DNA of 64,000 bases from an uncultured Mucilaginibacter sp. (lineage in GTDB: Bacteria > Bacteroidota > Bacteroidia > Sphingobacteriales > Sphingobacteriaceae): contig NZ_CAITNG010000013.1 of the NCBI RefSeq assembly GCF_903893715.1, positions 1 to 64,000 of the forward strand, written 5' to 3'. Under the pieces are notes generated by a model that was not told where the DNA came from, searched no databases, and worked only from the letters and a program-made list of their open reading frames with translations. A program made the position numbers and the translations under genes. Each line of letters begins with the position of its first letter. The first letter of the stretch is position 1. This document shows positions 56,628 through 58,630 of the stretch, in pieces.

Positions 56628-56640
56628 TAGTCCATATACA

Positions 56641-56711
56641 ATGGTCGATAGACCATGGTAAATAAAAGAGAATACAAAAGATAGACTATGGCCCATGGCG
56701 TATAGTCTATC
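56641..56711 (+). promoter_or_regulatory. Two inverted repeats in the prs-rplY gap
   Basis: ATGGTC-GATA-GACCAT (56641-56656) and a perfect 10-bp repeat GATAGACTAT (56680-56689) / ATAGTCTATC (56702-56711). They share the GATAGAC word. They could be an attenuator, an autoregulatory hairpin ahead of the ribosomal-protein gene or a dispersed repeat. Confidence 0.4.
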
Positions 56712-56737
56712 GACTTAACAATAAATAAATAAAAACA

Positions 56738-57359: not shown

Positions 57360-57393
57360 CCCGTTCCGATAGTTATCGGACGGGTTTTTTTTT
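57360..57393 (+). terminator. Terminator of rplY
   Basis: CCCG (57360-57363) with CGGG (57381-57384) and inner stem TCCGATA (57365-57371) with TATCGGA (57374-57380), loop GT, one bulged T, followed by T9. Confidence 0.85.
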
Positions 57394-57408: not shown

Positions 57409-57437
57409 TGTCATTGCGAGCGAAGCGTGGCAATCTC
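57409..57437 (+). repeat. Left 29-bp inverted repeat of the GIY-YIG unit
   Basis: Reads TGTCATTGCGAGCGAAGCG and ends GGCAATCTC. The inner flank contains GGACAGG at 57441-57447. Confidence 0.8.
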
Positions 57438-57465
57438 TGCGGACAGGTAACCGACACGCAAGTCG

Positions 57466-57762
57466 TTAATCATACCATCCCCCACTTAAATCTGTCCATT
57501 CAGGATTGTCTTTATTTATTAAATCAATTTTCTTTTGCCGTGAACCAGCCTTCAATTGTTTTTCGCGATCAATGGCATCATGAATCCATTGGTATTCTTC
57601 GTAGTAGACTAACTTGTTATACCTATATTTCTTTGTAAAACCGGGATGTACGCCGTTTTTATGCTCCCAAACTCTACCTTGAAGGTCGCTTGTAACGCCT
57701 ACATATAATACCACCTTATTTATATTGGTGAGGATGTAAACACAATATTCATGCAGTTTCAT
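57466..57762 (-). CDS. GIY-YIG endonuclease domain protein (URI-type)
   Basis: 98 aa, a single GIY-YIG domain. The motif is seen as YCVYILTNINKVVLYVGVTS (Tyr, then YVGV), followed by the catalytic Arg region DLQGRVWEHKNG and the Glu-bearing LVYYEEYQWIHDAIDREKQL with KKIDLINKDNPEW. Such stand-alone proteins are very common and small; the activity of most is unknown. It sits inside a pair of near-identical inverted repeats, in the antisense orientation to rplY. It could be a domesticated repair nuclease or the motor of a mobile repeat. Confidence 0.88.
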   Translation of the reverse strand: MKLHEYCVYILTNINKVVLYVGVTSDLQGRVWEHKNGVHPGFTKKYRYNKLVYYEEYQWIHDAIDREKQLKAGSRQKKIDLINKDNPEWTDLSGGWYD

Positions 57763-57821
57763 AATGCAATATAGTGGGTTCGTTTTGCATTTCGGAAAGG
57801 CATGATGCCTGTCTATCCTTT

Positions 57822-57850
57822 GAGATTGCCGCGCTGCGCTCGCAATGACA
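57822..57850 (-). repeat. Right 29-bp inverted repeat of the GIY-YIG unit
   Basis: On the minus strand reads TGTCATTGCGAGCGCAGCG and ends GGCAATCTC, differing from the left copy at two positions. A small palindrome GGCATGATGCC lies 12-22 bp inside it. Confidence 0.8.
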
Positions 57851-57864
57851 TGGTGGTTATTTTT

Positions 57865-58191
57865 TCAACTTTCCGGCAAAAACGTCTCTGCCACCTCGTA
57901 CATGCCCGGTGCAAAGGTGGCTATTTTAAGGGCTTCATCAAGGTAGGGCGATGCCTGGGCGTTGTTACGCATGTTTTGGTAATCTTCCATACTGCGCCAT
58001 TGGGCATACATGGTTACTTTGGTGCCATCCAAACTGCGGTGCAGGCTGGAGGATATGAACCCGGTTATTTTTCGCACGCTATCGGCAGTGGCACGCGTTA
58101 ATAACTCAACCAGTTTTTGCTGGTTTACAGGATTGACAGAAAAAACATTAATAAGGGTGAGGTAGTGGTTTTCTGTGGAAATTGTTGTCAT
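57865..58191 (-). CDS. Antibiotic biosynthesis monooxygenase (ABM) domain protein
   Basis: 108 aa. The ABM ferredoxin-like fold is suggested by LINVFSVNPVNQQKLVELLT, VRKITGFISSSLHRSLDGTKV and YAQWRSMEDYQNMRNN. Cofactor-free monooxygenases of this fold oxidise quinone-type or heme substrates, but many single-domain members have other roles. It has no partner gene. It starts just outside the GIY-YIG unit. Confidence 0.85.
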   Translation of the reverse strand: MTTISTENHYLTLINVFSVNPVNQQKLVELLTRATADSVRKITGFISSSLHRSLDGTKVTMYAQWRSMEDYQNMRNNAQASPYLDEALKIATFAPGMYEVAETFLPES

Positions 58192-58293: not shown

Positions 58294-58630
58294 GATACCC
58301 AAAAATATCCATGTGTTTTCGCAAAGCGCATGGAGGCCGGCGCAAAGCGTAAGAAAGAAAAGAGCGTTTCTATATTGAGCGGATACCCATAAATACCCAT
58401 GTGTTTTATAATATAGAACACTGAATATCCAATATTGAATGATGAAGTAAGGTCGATATTCGACATTCAAAATTCATTGTTCGATATTCGCGGATACCCA
58501 TAAATACCCATATTGATGGAAGATGGAAGACGTAAAAGGGAAGATGTAAAATGGAAGACGTTAAAGGGACAGAAAATCCGAAATCGGACATCCGAAATTC
58601 GAAATCAAAAAACACCCATAAATACCCATA
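58294..58630. repeat. Patchwork of short intergenic repeats
   Basis: About 340 bp without a credible gene. A TACCCATAAATACCCAT-type word recurs at 58383-58399, 58494-58510 and (ACACCCATAAATACCCAT) 58612-58629, with a diverged copy at 58296-58312. The first two are followed by GTGTTTT. Between them lie the TCGATATTCG-CATTCAAAATTCATTG and TCCGAAAT words typical of Bacteroidota intergenic repeats. The spurious frames here all derive from the repeats. Confidence 0.65.

Follow-up and report, generated by a model that had tools for sequence, protein, structure and literature searches.

A GIY-YIG gene enclosed by REP-type repeats

The window, by which we mean the whole 64-kb stretch of DNA that was analysed, carries a compact 442-bp unit in the convergent gap between rplY and a gene for an ABM-domain protein. 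Inverted 29-mers form its two ends, matching at 27 of 29 positions, and the only gene that they enclose lies on the minus strand and encodes a 98-aa GIY-YIG protein; the repeat finder, the sequence and the ORF list agree on this layout, as the initial annotation had described it, and the spacers of 28 and 59 bp between gene and ends and the word GACAGG just inside both ends were the same on re-check. A terminator-like hairpin of rplY (57365-57380) lies on one side and the ABM gene (57865-58191) on the other. The features are as follows.

57409..57437, plus strand: outer end 1, a REP-type repeat with tag TGTC, stem start ATTGC and tail CTC (27/29 to the other end; DNA fold)
57442..57447, plus strand: subterminal GACAGG, akin to GGATAGGTAACCGACATGC of the solo copies (sequence comparison)
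57466..57762, minus strand: single-domain GIY-YIG nuclease gene, 98 aa (PF01541, E 6.3e-15; conserved residues; AlphaFold model)
57808..57813, minus strand: subterminal GACAGG near the other end (sequence)
57822..57850, minus strand: outer end 2, inverted copy of the outer end 1 repeat (27/29; counted inward from the tag, its first 38 nt match the solo-element end at L012 exactly)
57409..57850, no strand: whole unit, 442 bp, read as an autonomous copy of the repeat family (flanking, solo-copy and tree comparisons)

When folded as DNA, each end of the unit gives an unpaired TGTC tag, a stem ATTGC...GCAAT and a CTC tail, and this is the anatomy of a repetitive extragenic palindrome (REP), with its tag, palindromic stem and short tail. 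The count within the window is weak by itself, since the 11-mer GTCATTGCGAG has two matches there at up to one mismatch and 13 of 100 shuffles reach the same number.

Other repeated words lie in the same neighbourhood. Four AYACCCATAAATACCCAT-type words at up to three mismatches fall within 58295-58629 of the window (0 of 100 shuffles give four), and a stretch resembling this type of word lies directly outside three solo elements of the same genome (L002, L006 and L012). A palindromic CCATAGACCATGG-type word, found in the window at 56628-56720, also stands next to rplY in several of the genomes of the genus (L170, L173, L177 and L179).

A conserved single-domain nuclease

The 98-aa protein matches PF01541 (GIY-YIG) at E 6.3e-15 and no second Pfam domain at E 0.001; its AlphaFold model has a mean pLDDT of 89.8. 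Y9, Y20 and R30 are present in 73 of 73 intact relatives and E67 in 72 of 73, positions which we take to be those of the catalytic Tyr, Tyr, Arg and Glu of GIY-YIG nucleases; H34 and N86 are also conserved (72-73 of the 73). Thirteen pairs of genes were tried for dN/dS, two of which gave no ratio; among the other 11, nine lay at 0.01-0.12, and the last two, at 0.23 and 0.34, had very low dS. Judged from the sequences, this comparison shows the gene to be under purifying selection, with its catalytic-type residues kept.

By sequence profile and fold, the closest match is UPF0213 BH0048, which alone reaches E 0.001, and Slx1-Slx4 comes next. Because the nearest folds are UPF0213 and Slx1-Slx4, a cutter of branched DNA, the protein is likely to be a structure-specific nuclease, and its probable mechanism would be action on hairpins or cruciforms. 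The database label of relatives is 'GIY-YIG nuclease family protein', with 'excinuclease ABC subunit C' standing in some of the records; an ordinary UvrC or repair gene was considered as the identity of the 98-aa gene and rejected.

Association of the gene with the repeats

The sample for the genus consisted of the best-scoring protein matches among those listed for 149 genomes, whose surroundings were fetched. Four truncated rows were left out, and the 110 untruncated rows, the best-scoring part of the matches listed, represent 109 genes because the frameshifted gene at L156 makes up two rows. A side was counted as flanked when an inward-facing GTCATTGCGAG, with at most one mismatch, lay within 300 bp of the gene. 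Repeats are present on both sides in 86 of these 110 best-scoring rows, on one side in 19 and on neither in 5. Other genes are not flanked as often, an outcome that the initial annotation had set as a test of its proposal: a sister GIY-YIG family, present in 39 of 41 genomes searched, has the repeat on either side at 0 of 30 loci (3 of them shortened by contig ends), and both-sided ends occur at 0 of 29 rplY control loci.

Estimated from repeat density in seven genomes, both-sided flanking is expected by chance at 4e-7 to 8e-5, rates that rest on a stricter pattern than that of the flanking test; with the looser word of the flanking test itself the expectation for three 400-kb stretches rich in repeats is 4e-4 to 5e-4. 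Chance flanking was rejected, an expectation of about 5e-4 or less standing against the frequency seen and the sister family having none. A flanking inverted repeat was also found without supervision, by comparison with dinucleotide shuffles generated by a simple custom segment-swap routine, at 22 of 25 loci of the window's clade, 0 of 30 of the sister family and 3 of 29 rplY loci.

The tag base follows the protein tree

The base immediately outside GTCATT was read at both ends of 85 units from 63 genomes, a set that leaves out L156 and units without both ends. In the maximum-likelihood protein tree, the window's clade (support 100/99) holds 49 TT units and one TC unit, and the remaining 35 units comprise 33 CC, one CT and one TC. 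The tag labels change four times on this tree, against a mean of 29.1 when shuffled and with 0 of 200 shuffles as low; because the labels follow the tree in this way, the TGTC-tagged ends are, on this comparison, paired with one protein clade and the CGTC-tagged ends with the other. The tree tool itself cautions that alignment columns are few and bootstraps rough. Two loci that had been binned by score in the other clade, L114 and L116, were reassigned to the window's clade after the tree, and one outgroup row and L019, a second GIY-YIG gene of the window's own genome, fall inside the window's clade on long branches and are flagged as unsure; these last two have no tag and were left out of the tag-clade count.

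Solo elements and copy number

The 4.0-Mb genome has 17 copies of the 13-mer GTCATTGCGAGCG and 0 of its reversed control. Two of the copies are the unit's own ends, and 11 of the other 15 have an inverted partner at 95-140 bp end to end. A longer repeat pattern is present in 144 of the 149 genomes of the genus, with up to 460 copies and a reversed control of 0 in every row listed. Solo elements of roughly 80-140 bp have ends and subterminal sequences of the same kind as the gene-bearing units. After removal of the tag and the core GTCATTGCGAG, all seven T-tagged solos of the own genome still best match the ends of T-clade units and all eight C-tagged solos those of C-clade units, and for five of the seven T-tagged solos the window's unit is the top match among 170 unit ends. 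Over 1.2 Mb of sequence, made up of 400 kb per genome from three relatives, the T-tagged solo ends go to the T-clade in 40 of 46 cases (6 to the other clade) and the C-tagged ends to the C-clade in 30 of 43 (13 to the other), and for 32 of 90 solo ends the best match is a unit from their own genome group (share 0.07); these ends are interdependent, there being two per element and some being orthologous among the three genomes.

At one site of genome G053 (L093), a solo next to the unit has 43 nt of one end in common with it and agrees with it at 28 of 29 positions of the other. Since solos share both ends and inner sequence with the units, they look like internal-deletion derivatives of gene-bearing units. 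The comparison of solo and GIY-YIG-bearing copies that the initial annotation had proposed accordingly finds ends common to both, in the own genome (L012 included) and at L093.

T-tagged repeats have a median count of 33 in the 57 genomes with the window's clade, 7 in the 65 with the other clade only and 2 in the 27 with neither, the grouping being by best E-value only. The difference between the window's clade and the rest has p 1.4e-9, and other-clade genomes have more C-tagged repeats than genomes with neither (p 5e-4), in both cases by statistics that ignore relatedness. The initial annotation expected repeat numbers to go with GIY-YIG phylogeny, and this is borne out on average and in end sequence, with clear exceptions: G026 has 457 tagged ends and G003 has 88, both without a clade match, and G020, G048 and G085 have the window's clade and 0 exact T-tagged repeats. 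Candidate explanations for G026, with its many ends and no mobile-clade gene, are recent loss, an assembly gap or another enzyme.

Presence and absence at orthologous sites

Genome G111 contains a pair of units that are 89% alike across 454 bp, and the homology runs from CGTC to GACG between unrelated flanks. The G053 site is occupied by the unit in G032, by a solo element in G091, by a different element in G026 and by half an element among other repeats in G015; nothing is found there in G117 and G039. In Sphingobium, a single head-to-head palindrome in strains TomTYG64 and TomTYG74 stands where TomTYG46 and TomMM15 carry a gene-bearing unit. In Sinorhizobium, two successive units in strain Ak57, the first of them truncated, correspond to a single palindrome in C101, K101 and G897; the outgroup G813 keeps an apparent remnant of a unit, which favours loss over insertion. 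The palindromic arms provide short direct repeats through which recombination could delete a unit, so single palindromes may be deletion scars; the polarity may run either way. On a plasmid of Azospirillum lipoferum 4B (L348), a GIY-YIG unit with REP pairs around it separates sufB from sufC in the suf operon, and the three relatives read lack the gene. Closely successive units are also seen at L138 (G016) and L142 (G110), besides the pair of S. meliloti Ak57 (L338).

The initial annotation described the window's unit as inserted cleanly between the rplY terminator and the ABM gene. Its position there is confirmed and the clean insertion is not, since the 29 rplY loci read in other genomes (out of 58 with a match) all lack an ABM gene beside rplY within the stretch examined and so offer no matched empty site. 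All 29 lack the unit as well, which, with the presence and absence at orthologous sites elsewhere, speaks against a unit fixed in all relatives, the outcome that had been set against the proposal. Some units do stay at one locus across several species, as a resident gene would. A target-site duplication was found neither at L157/L162 nor in the comparison of 400 kb apiece from three related genomes, and sorting the three-genome comparison into full, partial, empty and other sites gave three 'empty' comparisons, none with a clean junction; the intergenic DNA at orthologous sites is remodelled around the element. A second palindromic family, GTCATTTCGAG...AGAAATC, occupies similar intergenic slots (L196, L199 and the G053, G032 and G015 stretches) and may have a GIY-YIG clade of its own.

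Related genes in other genera and phyla

A search of 395 Bacteroidota genomes gave a match in 140, and 5 of these belong to the window's genus. The view of the initial annotation that the enzyme serves the repeats of this phylum is well matched in the window's genus by the flanking counts above and less so in other genera, where 8 of 28 loci pass the shuffle test, against the 3/29 of rplY and 0/30 of the sister family. A first inverted-repeat test, whose null consisted of the flanks of other loci that themselves bear REPs, had given 2/27 for Bacteroidota and 5/16 for plasmid records.

At five Rhizobiales loci (L047-L049, L051 and L052) the inverted ends are of the CGTCATCCTCGGGC...GAGGATC type, a pattern with 3 to 15 copies in the genomes concerned; besides the gene-bearing pair there are several further inverted pairs of roughly 120-145 bp. 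From a plasmid collection, 16 loci drawn from 33 records were examined, and in 14 of the 16 the flanking inverted repeat exceeds all 60 shuffles. The passing loci include Aeromonas, Azospirillum, Sphingobium, Neisseria, Planktothrix and Spirosoma, not all of them with clear CGTC REPs; Photobacterium and Rhizobium tumorigenes are those among the 16 that fail. The repeats around the Neisseria gene resemble those that the text of Di Nocera et al. (PMC3733652), in the part available, equates with dRS3, and the Neisseria case is weak because such dRS3-like repeats crowd the vicinity of the gene. In several Pseudomonadota, CGTC-tagged REPs enclose related genes, which suggests a reach that may be wider than the phylum first proposed. 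On a plasmid of Planktothrix agardhii (L346), a related GIY-YIG gene stands between an MmeI-like restriction enzyme and the DISARM gene drmA.

Interpretation

We consider it probable that the 442-bp unit is an autonomous member of a REP/REPIN-like mobile family and that its single-domain Slx1/UPF0213-like GIY-YIG protein is the dedicated enzyme of that family, by a catalytic route that we infer. The flanking counts, the tag-clade code and the shared ends all support the autonomous element with related non-autonomous copies that was first suggested for this locus. Each end would form a hairpin when single-stranded or extruded, and the nuclease would recognise tag and stem (T/C-GTC-AT...) and nick the hairpin at its base, acting in cis on the unit that encodes it and in trans on solo elements; the freed ends could then be copied or joined into intergenic DNA by host replication and repair, with no target-site duplication. 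Recombination between the palindromic arms could delete a unit and leave a solo palindrome behind. Several findings weigh against this reading: neither a target-site duplication nor a clean junction was seen, intergenic sites are reshaped around the element, some genomes are rich in repeats yet have no match of the clade, other Bacteroidota genera show a weaker flanking signal, certain units keep their locus across species, and solo ends of the three-genome stretches follow the tag-clade match imperfectly.

Another reading is that of a homing-like parasite, in which REP palindromes pre-exist and spread otherwise, and the GIY-YIG gene inserts into them and duplicates the palindrome arms at its flanks. 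It would account for the single head-to-head palindromes at the gene's place in gene-less Sphingobium and Sinorhizobium strains, and the portions available of two papers describe REP-targeting insertion sequences (PMC1525189) and homing enzymes with GIY-YIG domains (PMC1564403). We nevertheless regard it as unlikely, given that solos and units have 38-43 nt in common, some of it internal to the REP boundary, much as internal-deletion derivatives would, that the remnant in the Sinorhizobium outgroup favours loss, and that the protein has no further domain in Pfam. Very unlikely, in our judgement, is a host-resident nuclease that processes or restrains REP hairpins in cruciform or replication repair, being retained close to these substrates without mobilising them. 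Such a gene would not be expected in several copies per genome (as seen among the matches listed), at unrelated sites with homology that stops at the repeats, or in decayed form (an in-frame stop in 6 of 30 loci among the matches listed), even if several units do keep one locus across species, the gene is under purifying selection, the fold is Slx1-like and prokaryotic stand-alone GIY-YIG proteins are placed in the Slx1 family in the available text of PMC1564403. Hitch-hiking of a small intergenic gene that came to lie between REPs by chance, for which one could cite the abundance of REPs in intergenic DNA and of these repeats in some genomes, is hardly credible beside both-sided flanking far above the computed chance among the best-scoring rows, its absence in the sister family and the tag-clade code.

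If the autonomous-element reading is right, the 98-aa protein is a cognate nuclease with which the spread of CGTC REPs, left open in 2013 in the accessible text of PMC3733652, becomes testable in vitro; the combination of REP and dedicated nuclease would have had at least two origins, one with an HUH enzyme and one with an unrelated GIY-YIG enzyme, and proteins labelled only 'GIY-YIG nuclease family protein' or 'excinuclease ABC subunit C' would gain a function. The comparison across many genomes points to this kind of gene as the dedicated enzyme so far lacking for a widespread class of palindromic repeats in bacteria. Whether stand-alone Slx1/UPF0213-like GIY-YIG nucleases mobilise the whole CGTC/TGTC REP superfamily across phyla by hairpin incision, Neisseria dRS3-type repeats included, and so make up a class of DNA mobilisation enzymes outside the known transposases, is a proposition to which we give even chances.

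Comparison with known systems

UPF0213 proteins (BH0048, 1zg2; EF2693, 1ywl) and Slx1 share the GIY-YIG domain with the window's protein and are its best profile and fold matches; we know of no link of either to repeats. In the part available of PMC1564403, eukaryotic Slx1 works with Slx4 and bears a RING finger, and orthodox Slx1 lacks the C-terminal Asn that the window's family retains as N86. The same text, in which prokaryotic stand-alone GIY-YIG proteins are classed with Slx1, raises the question of whether other GIY-YIG proteins are molecular parasites. Homing endonucleases such as I-TevI belong to the same nuclease superfamily and are used by selfish DNA, according to that text; they differ in that the window's unit, with 98 aa, one Pfam domain and an intergenic position, has no NUMOD-type extra DNA-binding domain and no intron or intein host, and it has terminal repeats of its own. 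A MITE with an autonomous parent would share its ends with that parent, as at L093, and would show target-site duplications, none of which were seen at L157/L162 or in the three-genome comparison.

The CGTC-tagged REPs surveyed by Di Nocera et al. (2013, PMC3733652) come nearest among repeats. As described in the part of the survey available, they include Neisseria dRS3 and Rickettsia RPE-4/RPE-6, are known from five phyla, with Bacteroidetes, S. meliloti and A. lipoferum among their hosts, and resemble the repeats described here in their tag (CGTC, often TGTC), AT-first stem and head-to-head dimers. The placement of the window's ends among them is partial. The survey text gives CGTC or its TGTC/CCTC variants as tags and complementary A/T as the first two stem residues, and both ends have TGTC followed, after the unpaired 4-nt tag, by ATTGC; it describes head-to-head dimers as predominant, and 11 of the 15 other own-genome copies are paired. 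Stem continuity, loop and tail do not fit, the survey text giving an 8-9 bp stem with a 4-5 nt loop and an unpaired tail that is CCA in most, not all, cases, against 8 pairs with an internal loop, a 3-nt loop and CTC in the window. The other difference is the gene: these REPs "apparently lack a dedicated transposase" and stand without an associated transposase gene in the text available, in whose main part 'GIY' has no occurrence, whereas a GIY-YIG gene lies between such repeats here. The main text of RepRanger 2025 (PMC12306157), as far as available, likewise has no occurrence of GIY or endonuclease, and among the matches listed in a REP-targeted literature search no paper joins GIY-YIG to REPs by title or start of abstract, a search whose scope excluded bioRxiv and most subscription journals and which does not establish priority.

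The closest analogue in organisation is the RAYT/REPIN system with its REPtrons, which in the accessible text of PMC3733652 combines a small nuclease gene between REPs, as in 86 of 110 rows here, with short non-autonomous REP pairs in the same genome and repeat-specific enzymes. It differs in both enzyme and tag: RAYTs are HUH/Y1 tyrosine transposases of the IS200/IS605 type, whereas PF01541 is the only domain found in the window's protein and its fold matches are GIY-YIG proteins, in place of a transposase with an HUH motif and a catalytic Tyr; and the RAYT tag is GTAG, whereas the ends here carry TGTC (the window) or CGTC. The family thus parallels RAYT-REPIN with an unrelated enzyme, and works like a REPtron while not being one.
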